The notes under the pieces were generated by a model, which saw only the letters and a list, made by a program, of their open reading frames with translations, was not told the DNA's origin and searched no databases. A stretch of 64,000 nt of DNA from Streptococcus marmotae. Lineage in GTDB: Bacteria > Bacillota > Bacilli > Lactobacillales > Streptococcaceae. The stretch's first letter is position 1. Each line of letters begins with the position of its first letter. Location: positions 1,509,501 through 1,573,500 of the forward strand of contig NZ_CP015196.1 in NCBI RefSeq assembly GCF_001623565.1, read 5' to 3'. Positions 34,221 to 42,016 of the stretch are shown here, in pieces. The position numbers and the translations under genes are program-made.

Positions 34221-35191
34221 GAAAGCCTAGAATTACAGTCATTGGAGGTGGGACAGGCATTCCAGTGATTCTAAAAAGTCTGCGGGATAAGGATGTGGAT
34301 ATTACTGCCATTGTAACCGTAGCAGATGATGGTGGATCTTCTGGTGAAATCCGTCAGGCCTTACAGATGACACCGCCCGGTGATTTAAGAAATGTCTTGC
34401 TCGCCATGTCTGATATGCCAAAGCTCTATGAGCGTATTTTCCAATATCGGTTTGCAGAAACGGATGGAGCCCTAGCAGGGCATCCGTTAGGAAATCTAAT
34501 CATCGCTGGTATCTCTGAAATGCAGGGCTCGACCTATCATGCGATGCAGTTGCTATCAAAATTTTTCCACACGACTGGTAAAATTTATCCTTCCAGTGAG
34601 AATGCCTTGACACTTCATGCGGTTTTTACAGATGGTCACGAGGTGGTAGGAGAAAGTAAGATTGCTGGGTATAAGGGGATGATTGATCGTGTTTTTGTGA
34701 CCAACTCATACAACCAAGATGAACCAACCGCTAGTCGGAAGGTGGTTGAGAGTATTTTAGAAAGCGATATGATTGTCTTGGGGCCAGGTTCTTTATTCAC
34801 TTCCATTTTGCCTAATTTAATGATTTCAGAGATTGGGCAGGCCTTAAAAGAAACCAAGGCAGATGTGACCTATGTTTGTAACATTATGACCCAGAGAGGG
34901 GAAACGGAATTTTTTAGTGATGCAGACCATGTGCGCGTGTTGAACAAGCATTTAGGGGACAATGTGATTGATACGGTTCTTGTCAATATAGAGCCGGTTC
35001 CAAAAGAATACATGAATACCTACCAATTTGATGAATACTTGGTGCAGGTAAAACATGATTTTACAGGTCTGCAAGCACAAGCCCAGCGTGTCATTTCTTC
35101 AAATTTCTTGCGCTTGGAAAATGGCGGAGCCTTTCATGACGGGGACTTAGTGGTCGAAGAACTCTTGAAAATTTTACAGGTGAAATCATGA
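34217..35191 (+). CDS. yvcK: Gluconeogenesis/cell-wall factor YvcK (GlmR)
   Basis: 324 residues of the UPF0052/CofD-like fold, with the N-terminal [13 protein letters not shown] loop and [10 protein letters not shown] near residue 38. YvcK/GlmR binds UDP-sugars and stimulates GlmS, routing carbon to UDP-GlcNAc; in pneumococcus it affects PBP positioning. It overlaps both neighbours by 4 bases, so translation is tightly coupled. Confidence 0.94.
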
Positions 35192-36099
35192 GTTTTAGTG
35201 TGCAGGTGAAAGAAGAAATCATCAGTCATGGTCAGACTGAAAAGAGTGAATTAGCAGCTATGATTAAACTATCTGGCAGTCTCGGTTTGGCTTCAACTGG
35301 TTTGACCTTGTCGATTAGCAGCGAAAACGCCAAGATTGCCCGCCACCTCTATGAGATGCTCTATCATTTTTATGAGGTTAAGGCTGAAATTCGTCATCAT
35401 CAAAAGACAAATCTTCGAAAGAACCGTGTTTATACGGTATTTTTAGAGGAGGAGGTCAATGCGATTTTAGATGATCTCTACCTAGCAGATAGTTTCTTTG
35501 GTTTGGAAACGGGGATTGCACCTGCTATTTTGGAAAATGATAGCTGGAGCCAGTCCTATCTACGAGGCGCCTTTTTAGCGAGTGGTTCGGTGAAAGATCC
35601 TGAAACAGGTAAATACCAGCTGGAAATTGCTTCCATCTATGAAGATCATGCTCATGACTTGGCTAATTTGCTGCAAAAATTTCTCTTGGATGGTAAAGTC
35701 ATTGAGCGCTCTAAAGGGAGTATTACCTATTTGCAGCGTGCAGAAGATATTATGGACTTTCTCTTAATCGTTGGGGCAGAAGAAGCAAAGACAGAATTTG
35801 AAAATGTCAAATTGCTTCGGGAAACACGCAATGATCTCAACCGAGCTATTAATGCAGAGGCTGCTAACATTGCTCGAACTGTTACGGCCAGTATGAAAAC
35901 AATCAACAATATTTCTAAGATTATGGAAAGCATTGGCTTAGATCAGTTACCGTCTGATTTGCAAGAAGTCGCTCAATTGCGGATTCAACATCCAGACTAT
36001 TCGATTCAGCAGTTGGCAGATAGTCTTTCAAAACCAATCACAAAGAGCGGCCTCAATCACCGACTGCGTAAAATCAATAAAATTGCGGATGAATTATAA
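35188..36099 (+). CDS. whiA: DNA-binding protein WhiA
   Basis: 303 residues: an N-terminal degenerate LAGLIDADG homing-endonuclease-like domain ([26 protein letters not shown]) and a C-terminal helix-turn-helix ([26 protein letters not shown]). WhiA influences division and chromosome segregation in firmicutes. Last gene of the rapZ-yvcK-whiA operon; an ISL3 relic follows it. Confidence 0.94.
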
Positions 36100-36135
36100 A
36101 AATCAGGTTGGACTTGAAACGAGTCTGCTGAAAAG

Positions 36136-36322
36136 ATATGGACTCTATAATTTTTGTGGTGGGTAAATCCACTGTGGAGATTATAGAGCTTTTTGACTAC
36201 GCGAAAAGTCCCATAAAACTTATCATGAAAAGCGATTAAAAACTCATTAGAAAGGATCTTATGGAACGCTTCAATAATATCACGCAACTCATCGGAATGA
36301 AAGATGAAAAAGGCCGGACAAA
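36136..36322 (+). mobile_element. ISL3-family relic (end plus transposase N-terminus)
   Basis: An imperfect hairpin at about 36136-36190 resembles the end of the ISL3 element at 31537-31585. After it, ATG 36260 starts MERFNNITQLIGMKDEK, clearly akin to MEQLNLITNFLKMKDKN of the ISL3 transposase. The similarity stops at the terminator near 36322. The rest of the element is gone. Confidence 0.65.
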
Positions 36323-36380
36323 AATGAACCGCATCCCAAAAGTTAGACTGAGAATCTAACGTCTGGGGTGCGGTTCATTT
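36322..36380. terminator. Bidirectional terminator between whiA and the DUF1846 gene
   Basis: Arms AAATGAACCGCATCCC (36322-36337) and GGGGTGCGGTTCATTT (36365-36380) with an inner hairpin GTTAGA / TCTAAC. A/T runs lie on both sides. Confidence 0.75.
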
Positions 36381-36399
36381 ACCATCAGAGGTTGTTGTT

Positions 36400-37893
36400 T
36401 CATTTATGATAAAACTTATTGTGTTGGTAGTTGGGGTCAAAGGTGACATTAATACCGAGTTTGCGGAGGACATTGCGGTCTTCTTCTGGAAGCGTTACGG
36501 TAGAGTGGCATTCGCTGCCGCTTAAATTGCCTAATTGTTTCATGGCAAGATCTGCTTCTGGCTTGTTCATAGCAGTAATGGCAAGGGCAATCAGTAGTTC
36601 GCTAGAGTGCAGACGTGGATTACGGTTGCCTAGATGATTGATTTTGAGGTTTTGAATTGGTTTGACATACTCTGGTTCAATCAAGTGTGTTGCCTTGTCA
36701 ATATTAGCTAAATTTTTAATGGCATTGATGATGACAGCCGCAGATGGACCAAAGAGGTCAGAGGTTTTACCTGTGACAATCTCACCATTAGGCAGTTCAA
36801 TGGCAAGAGCTGGCTGACCGGTTGCTTCTGCTTTGGCACGCGCTGCAATAGTTACCTTGCGGTCGCTTGGTGAAACACCCACTTCGTTCATCAAGAGTTC
36901 AATTTTTTTCACAGCAGATGCTGGAACTCGTTCAGCCTTGAAGTCTACCAAGGTTTGATAGTAGCGGCGGATAATTTCTTCTTTTGATGCGGCAATGGCT
37001 GCCTCTTCATCGACAATCGAGTAGCCCACCATATTGACACCCATGTCCGTCGGTGATGCGTATGGAGATTTAGCTAAAATACGCTCAAAGGTTCGATTAA
37101 GAACAGGGAAGACTTCGATGTCACGGTTGTAGTTGATTGCTGTTTTGCCGTAGGTTTGCAAATGGAAGGGGTCAATCATATTGAGGTCATCTAGGTCAGC
37201 AGTTGCTGCTTCGTAGGCCAGATTGACAGGATGATGAAGCGGTAAATTCCAGACAGGGAAGGTTTCAAATTTGGCATAGCCTGCCTTGATACCGTGCAAT
37301 TGGTCATGGTAGAGTTGCGAGATACAAGTTGCGAGCTTTCCAGAACCAGGACCAGGTGCGGTCACGACAATCAGATTGCGACTCGTTTCGATATAGTCAT
37401 TTTTACCCATACCTTCTGGTGAAATAATGTAGTCAATATCAGATGGATATCCCTTGATTGGATAGTGGAGATAGGACTGGATACCATTTTTTTCTAATTG
37501 ATGACGGAAAGCGTCAGCAGCTGGTTGATTGGTGTACTGGGTAATGACGACAGAGCCGACATAGATTCCCAAGTCGTTAAAGGTATCAATCAAGCGCAGC
37601 ACTTCTTGGTCGTAGGAAATGCCTAAATCACCACGGGCCTTAGAATGTTCAATGTTACTTGCATTAATGGCAATGACAATCTCAACCTGCTCTTTTAATT
37701 CTTGAAGGAGCTTAATTTTATTGTCAGGCTCATAACCAGGAAGCACACGGGCGGCATGGAAATCTTCTAGCATTTTTCCGCCAAATTCCATATACAATTT
37801 TCCGTCAAACTGCTGGATACGCTCTAAAATATGGTCACGTTGTAGTTGTAAGTATTTTGTTGAATCAAAAGCAATTTTTTTCACATTTTTCAC
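36400..37893 (-). CDS. DUF1846 family protein
   Basis: 497 residues, full length for DUF1846, a family widespread in lactic acid bacteria and clostridia. Recognisable segments include [19 protein letters not shown] at the start, [22 protein letters not shown] near residue 180 and the C-terminal [10 protein letters not shown]. The GPGSGK loop suggests nucleotide or phosphate binding. Crystal structures exist, but I know of no firmly established function. It has its own minus-strand promoter region and a convergent terminator with whiA. Confidence 0.9.
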
Positions 37894-38315
37894 CTCTTTT
37901 AAGATTATAATAAAAAGTTTTCAAAAAGAAAACGATTTACCGTTATTTCATGGAAAATATATTTATATGCAATAGATGATAGTGTCATTTTATGCTTAAA
38001 AAGTTCAGCAATGCTAAGTTCTTTAATGCAGAAAACAAGACAGTCAAGTTTGATACCGATAAAGGGTTTGTTTTGGAGAAATGATTGCAAAGATAGTTAG
38101 AATCCAAGGCGTCTAGTAGAGCTTTGAAAGGTAGCAACTACGGTGGAGGGTCGATAGGACAGAAGAGTTAGTTCTATGATGCCCAGCTTATCATCACTTT
38201 CTGCTTGGGCAGTTAGTTAGCAAAGAAAGAAGACAGATCTGTATTTTCAACATAATTGTGAAAATGGATTTCACTATTTACTTTGTATATAGGTTGTCGT
38301 GAAGATTACCCACGA
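37894..38315. other. Intergenic stretch with no convincing gene
   Basis: A 30-codon frame at 37992-38084 (MLKKFSNAKFFNAENKTVKF...) looks protein-like but has no clear ribosome binding site and may be a gene fragment. A hairpin TGCCCAGC / GCTTGGGCA lies at about 38180-38212, and another, TTGTCGTG / CACGACAA, at 38295-38318, bordering the ISAs1 remnant. Nothing else is recognisable. Confidence 0.35.
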
Positions 38316-39565
38316 CAAACGCATGAATAAAATATCGCTTTCAGATAAGAGTTTCATAATTTAAGATTGAATCCTCTGCTATACTAGAGATAGTGGAGGA
38401 TTTTGTTATGAATGGGCTACTCGATTTTTTGATACATGTCCGTGATGACAGAGAACCATGGAAAATCAAGCACCTCTTATCAGATATTGTGCTACTTATT
38501 TTCTTTGCACGTCTATCAGGTGCAGAATATTGGGATGAAATTGAGGAGTTTGGGAAATGCCTACGAGTCTTCCTTGCGAACTGTGTTGGAGTTAGAAAAT
38601 GGGATTCCGTCTCATGATACGCTCCAATGTGTCTTTGCGACCCTAAATCCCCAAGTTCTAGTAGAAGTAACACAGATGTAGTCTGCTCTCCTTGAAGAAG
38701 CAGAACTATCAGCTAAGAGTTTTACTCGATTTTCGAAACGCCTGATAGCGATTGACGGAAAGATGATTCGAGGGAATGCCAGCCCAAGGCAGAAAGCCTT
38801 GCATATTGTCTCAGCTTATGCGACAGACTTAGGGATTTCCTATGGTCAAGTAGCGACAGATGAAAAGTCTAATGAAATCACAGCGATACCAGAGTTATTA
38901 GACATGATTTCAGTGAAGGGCTGTATGATAAGCCTTGATGCCATGGGAACCCAGAAGGCTATTGCGGATAAGATTATCAAGAAGAAGGCTAGCCGTAAAA
39001 GATAATCAGAGGAGCCTTCTAGCAGATATTCGGCCCTTTTTCGAGGTAGATACTGAGCGAGATGATAGCTATGAGACGCTTGAGAAAGCACATGGTCAAA
39101 TCGAGTTGAGACAGTATGAGGTCATCAACAATACTCGTTGGCTCCGGAAAGCCCATCCAGAATGGGGTCATATTCAGAGTATAGGACGAGCTCATATTCA
39201 CATCACCAAGAATGGTCAAGAGAGTGAAGAAACCCGCTACTTTATCTTGAGTAGTCAGGTTAGCGCCAAGGAATTATGCGACTATGTACGCGGTCATTGG
39301 CAGATAGAGAGCCTGCATTGGCTGTTAGATGTTGTTTTTCGAGAAGATGCGAATAAGACATTGAACAAGCAATTAGCGTTTAATTTGAATGTAATGGACA
39401 AATTCTGCCTCGCTGTCCTAAAACGGCTGGATTTTGGAAAGAAAATGAGCATGCGACGCAAGAAATATGCCCTTAGTCTATCCTTTGACCAGTATTTGAA
39501 ACGACTATTTTAAATCAAAAAAGTGTTTGAGGGAGAAAAAGGGAGAAGAACGTTTCATGCGTTTG
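38316..39565 (+). mobile_element. ISAs1-family insertion sequence, decayed
   Basis: The ends share AAACGCATGAA (left at 38318; inverted at the right near 39563) and the length of about 1.25 kb fits the ISAs1 family. The transposase inside has several defects. The right end lies about 14 bases before the -35 box of the toxin-antitoxin locus. Confidence 0.7.
38408..39513 (+). pseudogene. ISAs1-family transposase with multiple frameshifts and a stop
   Basis: The start MNGLLDFLIHVRDDREPWK with LLSDIVLLIFFARLSGAEYWDEI is typical of ISAs1/H-repeat transposases. A frameshift near 38560 moves reading to AYESSLRTVLELENGIPSHD. A TAG at 38679-38681 interrupts EVTQM-SALLEEAE. A further frameshift near 38985 joins IIKKKA to AVKDNQRSLLADIRPFF, after which the frame is open to 39513 (GHWQIESLHWLLDVVFREDA). 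Three independent lesions make it clearly non-functional. Confidence 0.9.
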
Positions 39566-39578
39566 GCGTGGTTTTTAC

Positions 39579-39606
39579 TTGATACCAGTAGCATTTTGGG
39601 TATAAT
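39579..39606 (+). promoter_or_regulatory. Promoter of the candidate type III antitoxin RNA
   Basis: -35 TTGATA (39579-39584), 16-base spacer, -10 TATAAT (39601-39606). The start site would be near 39613, just before the first pseudoknot repeat. It lies immediately right of the ISAs1 end. Confidence 0.7.
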
Positions 39607-39612
39607 TTAATT

Positions 39613-39710
39613 AGAAGTAGTCGGAGAGTAGTACCGACTCTAAAAAGAAAATACTCTAAAGTTGATGTAGTCGTAAGGGTCGCGACTCTAAAAAGAAAGG
39701 CCCTTTTTTC
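39613..39710 (+). ncRNA. Candidate type III antitoxin RNA: two tandem pseudoknot repeats
   Basis: Two repeats are spaced exactly 50 nt apart (cores at 39619 and 39669), sharing GTAGTCG and CGACTCTAAAAAGAAA. Repeat 1: stem 1 AGTCGG (39619-39624) / CCGACT (39634-39639); its loop AGAGTA (39625-39630) pairs with TACTCT (39652-39657). Repeat 2: stem 1 AGTCG (39669-39673) / CGACT (39683-39687); its loop AAGGGTC (39675-39681) pairs with GGCCCTT (39699-39705). Both are H-type pseudoknots with an A-rich linker, and stem 2 differs in sequence but keeps its pairing. The second ends in TTTTTT, which could end part of the transcripts. This is the architecture of type III antitoxins, which bind and inhibit the adjacent toxin. 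Confidence 0.7.
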
Positions 39711-39712
39711 GT

Positions 39713-40192
39713 ATGATATTAGATGAGTTTCAAGAAAATCATGCGCGTGGACATGGTGTTATGGTTCTTGATATCAATAATCAGCTGATTGCAATTCTGC
39801 TTCGATCTGGTATTTCTGAGAATCTTAGGAACTCAAGCCATTTATTCCCTTACAAAACCTATAGACGTCACGATGGGAAAATGTGCTTAAAGGCCTTAGA
39901 CTTTAGTAAGTTGACTATTATTGATGAAAAATATATTGACAACTCAAGGATATATCACTTTAAAAATCCCAATGAGAAATCTTTTTACTTGAAAAATTCA
40001 AATCGTATCTTTTCACGAGTTAAGAACTACATAAACAAGTATATTAAGATTTGCTCAAAAATTGAAAATGGAGGTACTGTCACCTTTAGAACTTTGAGCC
40101 CATATCGATTTAGCACTCTACGTAACTTTCATGATGAATTAGGACCAGCTTGGATTTCTCTTTTTAATGTTGTTTGCGTTCACATTATCTAG
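39713..40192 (+). CDS. Candidate type III toxin (TenpN/ToxN-like endoribonuclease)
   Basis: 159 residues, beginning three bases after the poly-T tract of the repeat RNA. The order of features recalls TenpN/CptN/ToxN proteins: ARGHGVMVLDINNQLIAILLRSGI near residues 11-34, then CLKALDFSKLTIIDEKYI near 57-75, then a helical basic segment NRIFSRVKNYINKYIKI. These toxins are sequence-selective ribonucleases with roles in plasmid stability and phage abortive infection. The assignment rests on remembered family patterns plus the upstream pseudoknot repeats, not on a search. No good ribosome binding site is seen (AAGG lies 11 bases upstream). The C-terminus beyond DELGP may be read-through of old sequence. 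Confidence 0.65.
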   Translation: MILDEFQENHARGHGVMVLDINNQLIAILLRSGISENLRNSSHLFPYKTYRRHDGKMCLKALDFSKLTIIDEKYIDNSRIYHFKNPNEKSFYLKNSNRIFSRVKNYINKYIKICSKIENGGTVTFRTLSPYRFSTLRNFHDELGPAWISLFNVVCVHII

Positions 40193-40285
40193 ATAACGTA
40201 TCGAAAAAGGCTAGTGTTGATATGAATAGGGGATGAGCAGTTGGATTTATAAAACATCATCAATAGTTGTTTACTACTCATTCAT

Positions 40286-40317
40286 AAAGGACGTGTCAGA
40301 AAAGGCACGCCTTTTTT
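40286..40317 (+). terminator. Terminator downstream of the toxin gene
   Basis: A stem AAGG-CGTG / CACG-CCTT with one bulge, followed by TTTTTT. Confidence 0.65.
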
Positions 40318-40392
40318 ATCGATATGTGATATAATGGGAGAAGAAATTCGGGGATTTTTTGCACACCCCTACAAGGATAAAGGTTAAATTGT

Positions 40393-41199
40393 ATGATTAA
40401 GTTGATAGCAACGGATATGGATGGAACATTTCTTCGTGAGGATCATCAGTTCAATCGAGATCGTTTTCGTAAGATATTGGATCAATTCCATCAAAAAGGC
40501 TATCTTTTTGCAGCAGCAAGCGGGCGTTCCTTGTTGAGTTTGCAAGCTGTTTTCCAAGGCTTTGAAGATGAAATGGCATTTATTGCGGAAAATGGCTCAA
40601 TCGTATCCTACAAAGGAGACATAATTTTTGAAGATCAACCCATTGAACCGACAGTGTATATGGAGATTGTCCGTCGATTATCAGCCAGTCCATACGGTCA
40701 AAAAAGTTGTGTCGTCCTATCAGGGAAAAATAAAGCCTATCTCTTAAAGAGTGGAGATAGAGAGTTCATAGAGAGGATTTCCCCCTTTTATGTGAAGACG
40801 AGTCTCGTGTCGGATTTTTCGGAAGTGACAGAAGATATTGTCAAGATTGTAGTCACTTTTCCAAGTGAGGAAGTAGAAGTGGCACAAGAATGGCTGAATC
40901 AAGAGTTTGATGGCGTAACAGCTGTTACGACTGGTTTTAATTCAGTTGATATTATTCTATCAGATAGTCATAAGGCGGTTGGAATGTCCAAATTATGTGA
41001 GTATTGTGGTCTAGAAGCGGCTGATGTGGTAGCCTTTGGGGACAATCAAAATGATTTGGAAATGCTTGAATTTGCAGGGATAGCCCTTGCAACTAGTAAT
41101 GCGAGGCCAGAAGTAAAAAAGATAGCGGATAGGGTCATTGGCCATTGCAATGATGAAGCGGTCTTGACGTATATAGAGGAGATGTTAAATGAGTATTAA
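40393..41199 (+). CDS. Cof-type HAD phosphatase (first of two)
   Basis: 268 residues of the HAD superfamily, IIB (Cof) subgroup. Motif I is ATDMDGTFL at residues 6-14, a conserved lysine lies in the cap/core junction (SHKAVGMSKL), and motif IV is FGDNQNDLEML. Such enzymes dephosphorylate sugar phosphates, nucleotides or flavin precursors, and the substrate cannot be read from sequence. It overlaps the second HAD gene by 11 bases. The leader has a TATAAT box at 40330-40335 and a small GGGG/CCCC hairpin. Confidence 0.88.
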   Translation: MIKLIATDMDGTFLREDHQFNRDRFRKILDQFHQKGYLFAAASGRSLLSLQAVFQGFEDEMAFIAENGSIVSYKGDIIFEDQPIEPTVYMEIVRRLSASPYGQKSCVVLSGKNKAYLLKSGDREFIERISPFYVKTSLVSDFSEVTEDIVKIVVTFPSEEVEVAQEWLNQEFDGVTAVTTGFNSVDIILSDSHKAVGMSKLCEYCGLEAADVVAFGDNQNDLEMLEFAGIALATSNARPEVKKIADRVIGHCNDEAVLTYIEEMLNEY

Positions 41200-42016
41200 A
41201 TTGATTGCCTTAGATTTGGACGGAACCTTGTTGACGTCTGATAAGCGGATTTCAGATAAGAACAAAAAAGCCTTGCAAGTAGCTAGAGAAAAGGGTGTTT
41301 ATGTGGTTTTGACAACCGGGCGGCCCTTAAAAGCGATTGAACAATTTCTGGCAGAATTGGATTTGCTTGGAGAAGGACAGTATTCAATTACGTTTAATGG
41401 TGGGTTGGTTCAAGAAAATACAGGTCGTATTTTAGAAGAGACAGGATTTTCTGTTGAAGATGTGCGTGTGATTCGTGAGGTGACCAACCAGCTTGAATTG
41501 CCACTTGATGCGATTCACGGTGGAGATGTCTATTCCTTAGATGCGGCGCGTGCCTCACTCTATTCGACTTGCAATCCACTTTTACAGATTATTCCAACGA
41601 CAGATGCCACTCTTCCTGAAGACGTAACGTATAATAAAGCCGTAACAGCAGTTGATGCAGTATTTTTAGACCAACAGATTGCGAAATTACCAGCATTTTT
41701 GTATGAACGCTTTGAAATTTTTAAGTCACGGAATATTCTCTTGGAATGGAGTCCAAAGGGAGTTCACAAGGCAAACGGTCTTGCCAAGTTGATTGAACAT
41801 TTAGGAATTGATCGATCAGAAGTAATGGCCTGTGGTGATGAAGAAAATGATCTCAGTATGGTCGAATGGGCTGGACTCGGTGTTGCAATGGCAAACGCCA
41901 GCTCAAAACTAAAAGAAGTTGCTAAGGTGGTGTTACCAGTTACTAATGATGAAGACGGCATTGCTTGGGCAATTGAACAATATGTAGTAAGTGAGGAAGA
42001 AGATGGGACTATTTGA
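41189..42016 (+). CDS. Cof-type HAD phosphatase (second of two)
   Basis: 275 residues, HAD IIB subgroup. Motif I ALDLDGTLL at residues 6-14, motif II LTTGRPLKAIE, the lysine in SPKGVHKANGLAKLI, motif IV CGDEENDLSM. It is similar in layout to the preceding gene but divergent enough to suggest a different substrate. It overlaps ftsY, so the three genes form one operon, an arrangement known in streptococci. Confidence 0.9.
   Translation: MSIKLIALDLDGTLLTSDKRISDKNKKALQVAREKGVYVVLTTGRPLKAIEQFLAELDLLGEGQYSITFNGGLVQENTGRILEETGFSVEDVRVIREVTNQLELPLDAIHGGDVYSLDAARASLYSTCNPLLQIIPTTDATLPEDVTYNKAVTAVDAVFLDQQIAKLPAFLYERFEIFKSRNILLEWSPKGVHKANGLAKLIEHLGIDRSEVMACGDEENDLSMVEWAGLGVAMANASSKLKEVAKVVLPVTNDEDGIAWAIEQYVVSEEEDGTI

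Follow-up and report, generated by a model that had tools for sequence, protein, structure and literature searches.

A probably recently decayed TenpIN-type toxin-antitoxin locus retaining two antitoxin pseudoknots in Streptococcus marmotae

Introduction

In type III toxin-antitoxin systems, the toxin cuts a repeat RNA whose units in turn inhibit it, as described in excerpts of two studies (PMC5086642, PMC4627078). According to the same excerpts, ToxI needs 2.5 repeats and antiQ at least 1.8 for activity (PMC5086642), while a single CptI repeat is fully antitoxic and non-cognate CptI does not neutralise (PMC4627078). A phage has escaped ToxIN by expanding or capturing ToxI, and a phage-borne pseudo-ToxI is described in the excerpted source (PMC3475682); chromosomal modules are able to act against addiction, as stated in part of a further paper (PMC12548467). 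The present study concerns a locus related to TenpIN, a family of these systems, at positions 39579-40192 of a 64,000-nucleotide (nt) stretch of the Streptococcus marmotae genome (G000:C1:1509501-1573500 of 2.3 Mb, hereafter the window).

The locus is very probably a recently decayed TenpIN-type (type III) module, of a kind carried by streptococcal prophages and other mobile DNA. It would yield no working toxin, its promoter and both pseudoknots are kept, and its RNA may still be made; a working toxin-antitoxin system at this site is unlikely. The first-pass annotation had read a type III locus with a toxin of 159 amino acids (aa). Its family call, on the TenpIN side, was supported by profile, fold and covariation, whereas the locus appears to be decayed with only its antitoxin part intact, as the start region missing here is present in all 17 aligned relatives.

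With the TenpIN family, the locus shares the kinship of the toxin, tandem RNA repeats upstream, and a U-tract between RNA and toxin. It differs in a toxin truncated at both ends, in two units with unlike stem 2 sequences, and in a last unit that appears merged with the terminator; the published model of the Staphylococcus aureus TenpIN, in the excerpt available, has three repeats against two here (PMC4885055). With ToxIN/AbiQ, it shares the predicted fold of the toxin core and, as far as the papers describe it, an RNA pseudoknot antitoxin, and the promoter and first pseudoknot are common to the chimeric loci described below. In contrast to ToxIN/AbiQ, the repeat sequence is unrelated, and Pfam ToxN_toxin (PF13958) matched neither the window open reading frame (ORF) nor its intact homologue P0010. 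Likeness to CptN of CptIN was seen by fold comparison; a PDB sequence search gave two matches (best E value 0.73) with no CptN chain among them.

The features of the locus, in window positions, are as follows.

39579-39606, plus strand: sigma-70-type promoter TTGATA-16-TATAAT, by consensus; four relatives have a similar promoter in the corresponding place
39619-39657, plus strand: TenpI pseudoknot 1 (stem 1 AGTCGG/CCGACT, stem 2 AGAGTA/TACTCT), by comparative pairing
39669-39705, plus strand: TenpI pseudoknot 2 (stem 1 AGTCG/CGACT, stem 2 AAGGGTC/GGCCCTT), by comparative pairing
39704-39709, plus strand: T-tract right where stem 2 ends, a putative terminator merged with pseudoknot 2, with the same arrangement in 14 of 14 arrays
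39710-39722, plus strand: deletion-join region, shorter by 84 nt than in five of the six relatives measured and by 85 nt than in the other
39719-40140, plus strand: TenpN-like toxin fragment, by NCBIfam NF047358 (E 7e-18, 65.2 bits), alignment and fold
40141-40192, plus strand: ORF tail matching chromosomal intergenic DNA, weakly at 40141-40172 (29/33) and from 40169 onward within a 93% identical block of genome G607
38393-39513, plus strand: relic of an insertion sequence (IS) transposase in several frames, with Pfam DDE_Tnp_1 or an associated domain on three separate pieces; the label ISAs1 is that of the first-pass annotation

Results

Toxin family and predicted fold

The ORF at 39713-40192 is open over 159 aa. 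Its protein matched the NCBIfam TenpIN profile over positions 15-141 at the score given above, below the curated cut-off of 90 bits. Two full-length relatives, matching profile positions 1-141 with 68.8 and 76.2 bits, were under the cut-off as well, which places the TenpIN clade of the window at the edge of the NCBIfam model. Leaving aside the window's own entry, the nine nearest of the 49 homologues listed have lengths of 180-184 aa and are 80-87% identical over 89-91% of the ORF, and a relative is annotated as toxin TenpN in Streptococcus phage PhiSdyV1524. PADLOC found no families.

AlphaFold2 models reached a mean predicted local distance difference test (pLDDT) value of 75.7 for the window protein and 72.9 for P0010. 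With the P0010 model, Foldseek placed ToxN (2xd0) first, with a probability of 0.97 and an E value of 0.013. VIA-align, which re-examined the candidates proposed by Foldseek, ranked type III toxins first for both models, well above MazF. In its three best rows, the window model aligned from ToxN residues 21-27 onward, in agreement with the prediction from an N-terminal deletion. The structural comparison with ToxN, on which the first-pass annotation had staked its reading, was thus positive in VIA-align for both proteins and in Foldseek for P0010 but not for the window model. In these models, the predicted toxin core has the ToxN/CptN fold.

Damage to the toxin gene

The T-tract anchor and a shared codon block are separated by 7 nt in the window, compared with 91 nt in five relatives and 92 nt in another. 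The gene lacks the ribosome-binding site, the start codon and approximately the first 24 codons, while the last 16 or so codons of the ORF match intergenic chromosome of G607. In alignment A1, the N-terminus was likewise missing and the tail unrelated, with the start region found in every aligned relative. The missing part was present in all 14 proteins of alignment A2, chosen as full-length, where seven columns within the first 24 residues are invariant; the window protein also carries a substitution at a position invariant in these 14. Hence, the open frame stood, and a complete toxin gene with a translation start was not found in the window by alignment, junction distance or tail match. An intact toxin was accordingly rejected, given the lost start region, the lack of a convincing ribosome-binding site and the intergenic tail.

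The ratio of nonsynonymous to synonymous substitution rates (dN/dS) of the fragment was 0.07-0.11 where computable, against 0.05-0.13 between other relatives, with synonymous sites near saturation in several pairs. Because the two ranges resemble each other, the toxin gene appears, from its codons, to have decayed recently. For the same reason, its decay was rejected as proof of a long-kept orphan antitoxin.

Of the 11 close-clade loci (the window, L013, L014, L018, L019, L020, L022, L023, L024, L085, and L088), five have a broken toxin gene: the window locus, as described above; L020, L023 and L024, with in-frame stops; and L022, with a lost start region. Both repeats are retained in four of these five, which is as viability alone predicts. 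The exception is L022 (Staphylococcus cornubiensis), which has neither the repeats nor the toxin start region and lies outside the arrays read below.

Among the 49 homologues listed, 20 (including the window's own) are shorter than 165 aa. Twelve of the other 19 were aligned: ten retain the N-terminus, while P0019 and P0028 are without it. Five of the 12 (P0036, P0039, P0041, P0042, and P0043, all of 127 aa) have the same in-frame deletion inside the core, which is a recurrent or widespread inactivated form.

Antitoxin pseudoknots

The tandem RNA repeats lie directly 5' of the toxin ORF under one promoter, called by consensus only. The promoter-like sequence matches 11 of 12 consensus bases; shuffled sequences contain 0.6 on average, which makes it weak evidence alone, and it is strengthened by the like promoter at the same place in relatives, so the good promoter of the first-pass annotation held up. 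The two units share identical 16-nt cores 48 nt apart, rather than the 50 nt first given. The stem 2 pairings that had been proposed were confirmed, with equally good stems arising at frequencies of 0.0066 and 0.0106 when loop and tail letters were shuffled. Single-sequence folding of the locus RNA was no better than shuffles (z of -1.19, -0.27, and +0.19), and the support for the pseudoknots is therefore comparative. An Rfam search of the locus returned one sub-threshold RsaE match, which lies elsewhere.

Arrays 5' of TenpN-like genes were read in Streptococcus suis HCJ31 (L018), Enterococcus cecorum (L019), Staphylococcus intermedius (L020), Vagococcus lutrae (L021), plasmids of Enterococcus faecalis (L015), Listeria (L016), and Macrococcus (L017), phages L013 and L014, viral contigs L023 and L024, and genomes L085 and L088. 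With the window, these make 14 arrays, some of them near-duplicates. Each contains exactly two units by the search pattern, and in all 13 non-window arrays the units hold a fixed position before the TenpN gene. Compared with the units of the full-length streptococcal TenpIN loci L013, L014, L018, L085, and L088, those of the window show zero to two base differences inside the pseudoknots.

Covariation was measured on 18 units chosen from 37 (17 from TenpIN arrays and one of nine chimeric), omitting near-identical units and the other chimeric ones, some of which have only five stem 2 pairs. The named structure was paired in 96.0% of 198 cells, 30 cells were changed on both sides against a shuffled mean of 12.9, and the covariation score of 0.443 (shuffled 0.202) was reached by none of 500 shuffles. 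Two other measures showed no excess: the five pairs changed on both sides were reached by 306 of 500 shuffles, and the 12 further pair types by 144 of 500. Since four of the six stem 1 pairs never vary, the support comes mainly from stem 2 and one stem 1 pair; some repeat-2 rows of the alignment are one position off register. A test free of alignment, on 15 units, gave a mean duplex energy of -7.7 with cognate partners and -3.9 with swapped ones, and for 11 distinct units none of 20,000 permutations was as good. Repeat 2 alone (six units) reached 0.4% by score and 0.1% by energy, and repeat 1 alone (five units) about 5%. Unit 2 of the E. faecalis array L015 has only three contiguous stem 2 pairs left. 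Across the loci, the folding of the predicted antitoxin units as H-type pseudoknots is well supported, and the change of stem 2 with pairing kept, cited by the first-pass annotation as evidence for the fold, agrees with this covariation.

Stem 2 of the second unit abuts at least five T in all 14 arrays, and that of the first unit never does. The poly-T tract noted earlier between repeats and ORF is present, placed more exactly at the end of repeat 2's stem 2. This stem and the U-tract probably form a merged terminator; a terminator scanner did not flag the tract because its loop limit is 8.

Chimeric TenpI-ToxI arrays

A pattern search for the unit, allowing up to three mismatches, matched 39 of 284 Streptococcus genomes. 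Judged by their letters, eight of these carry TenpI pseudoknot 1 and 31 are unrelated; G570 alone was read further, and its two-mismatch match, which lies at the apparent end of a coding gene, was rejected as TenpI. A TenpN match was found in four of the eight (the window genome, G091, G596, and G605) and was absent from G064, G112, G137, and G546. The latter four contain chimeric loci (L083, L084, L086, and L087, respectively), and five more occur on viral contigs (L057, L058, L060, L061, and L062), which are five of the seven TenpI-bearing contigs among 30 with the 16-mer.

The nine chimeric loci read as the TenpI promoter, pseudoknot 1, between one and three ToxI-type repeats that begin with GGAGATTCCG, a hairpin resembling a terminator (folded for L084), and a ToxN gene. 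The TenpI part ends where stem 2 of pseudoknot 1 ends. The ToxN protein is 166 aa long in six of the nine loci and broken in L062, L086, and L087; two of the proteins were tested and matched Pfam ToxN_toxin at 1.4e-33 and 9.5e-34. Judged by eye, stem 2 of pseudoknot 1 retains five or six pairs in all nine, and in L062 one pair of stem 1 is gone. The ToxI-type unit of L084 alone folded no better than shuffles (z of -0.40).

Mean pairwise identity among the chimeras was 0.974 for the unit (38 columns), 0.842 for the leader (70 columns), and 0.926 for the next 30 columns. Among ten TenpIN loci, the values were 0.970, 0.746, and 0.962, with the window leader being partly IS DNA. The leader includes the end of an upstream gene. 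Because the loci share common ancestry, identity is no clean test of selection. The L061 chimera is flanked by neighbors like those of TenpIN in L013 and L014, which indicates that one prophage cargo slot can hold either array.

The chimeric arrays read as modular antitoxin RNAs and are perhaps bivalent. It is a tentative and rather improbable extension that streptococcal prophage type III antitoxin RNAs trade units, with the ToxI part restraining its own ToxN, the TenpI part guarding against a rival TenpN, and the window locus as a chromosomal orphan TenpI counterpart. In the titles and abstract openings of the open-licence papers retrieved, no streptococcal type III antitoxin was described as chimeric or orphan.

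Genome G111 has a ToxI-type unit without a TenpI unit. In its locus L127, as in L086 and L087, the ToxI-type unit precedes an ORF reading VWYHGTTS, a DUF3990-like motif, in place of a full-length ToxN.

Surroundings and other TenpN-related loci

An inverted-repeat-like end of the IS relic was placed by eye at about 39571, so that the -35 box begins some 7 bases further and not 14 as first annotated; inspection of the IS ends by eye revealed no target-site duplication next to them. The genes in the blocks around the locus are presumably whiA-like, DUF1846-like, and HAD-like. The blocks that adjoin at window 35188-41200 are far apart in G607, the nearest genome found. The locus hence lies at a rearrangement junction, and an empty site was not demonstrable.

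A second TenpN-like gene, encoding 171 aa, was found in the same genome (G000:C1:2129551-2129985, L002) and in L003-L006 and L008-L011. It is preceded by a conserved RNA of 150-180 nt with a long CCUCC-containing stem, a terminator-like hairpin and no evident tandem repeat. In six sequences, four of 37 predicted pairs were changed on both sides, with a slightly unfavorable covariation term (+1.64), and the RNA could be a single-unit antitoxin. Just downstream of the TenpN-like gene of L008, an Rfam skipping-rope RNA (RF02924, 73.6 bits) lies at 1390-1467 on the minus strand. The sole TenpIN match over the NCBIfam cut-off among 147 genomes was L001 (G072), whose two tandem units are unlike those of the window by eye. 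The full-length TenpIN of L013 is carried by the prophage PhiSdyV1524-fexAoptrA, where resistance genes are suggested by the name alone.

Discussion

In the intact relatives, one promoter would drive a short RNA that holds two unlike pseudoknots. Most transcripts would probably end at the second one's stem 2 with its U-tract, and read-through would reach the toxin gene. The toxin may cut this RNA between the units and be held inactive by them, as in ToxIN and CptIN. The toxin gene of the window, lacking its start region and its end, would not be expected to yield a working toxin, and the RNA may still be made, as the promoter and both pseudoknots are retained.

Several observations weigh against a decayed module. 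The 159 open codons with a relative-like dN/dS would equally fit a shortened functional protein, two of the 12 aligned shorter homologues also lack the N-terminus, and an AAGG match lies within 20 nt upstream of the start at 39713, on a par with the poor matches of L016 and L017. The TenpIN score is below the cut-off, as in the intact relatives, and Foldseek on the window model gave no ToxN match, returning mostly antibody chains at a template modeling (TM) score of about 0.1.

The best surviving alternative, though still the less favored by a wide measure, is that the RNA has been retained as an orphan antitoxin that neutralises the TenpN of incoming prophages or plasmids, in an anti-addiction or anti-abortive-infection role. 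The near identity of the window units to those of full-length streptococcal TenpIN loci suggests that the RNA may neutralise close TenpN proteins, and pseudoknot 1 is more conserved than the leader in chimeras and TenpIN loci alike. The excerpted literature offers phage expansion or capture of ToxI as precedent (PMC3475682). On whether a single TenpI unit could suffice it divides: the fully antitoxic CptI repeat speaks for this (PMC4627078), while the repeat numbers needed by ToxI and antiQ speak against it (PMC5086642), and the inertness of non-cognate CptI tells against the orphan role as well (PMC4627078). Viability alone predicts that toxins are lost before antitoxins; as this order is expected and the loss looks recent, retention of the antitoxin needs no benefit. 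Furthermore, only a single protein of the window form is present among the homologues listed (P0001, with one member sequence on two contigs).

A working type III system with a naturally shortened toxin, as the first-pass annotation implied, is improbable. The open frame, the signature of purifying selection, the intact promoter and antitoxin, and the existence of a few short homologues are consistent with it. However, the N-terminal part with its seven invariant columns occurs in every A2 protein, the window substitution falls at an invariant position, the new start has no convincing ribosome-binding site, and the tail matches intergenic DNA. Moreover, ten of the 12 aligned shorter homologues retain the N-terminus, and many may be contig-edge pieces. 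That the repeats arose by chance, or are merely a leader and terminator with no antitoxin, is very hard to credit: single-sequence folding is unremarkable and two of five covariation measures fall within shuffles, but covariation across loci and the fixed position before TenpN in 13 other arrays contradict it.

Comparison of the decayed module with its relatives supports the antitoxin fold in a TenpIN clade that has two unlike units, the last of which seems to be merged with the terminator; such a layout could link the dose of antitoxin to read-through into the toxin gene. The chimeric relatives raise the window locus above an ordinary relic. If the fused TenpI-ToxI arrays are functional, RNA antitoxins would be combinable like cassettes, and one 40-nt RNA unit would carry immunity to a rival toxin family.
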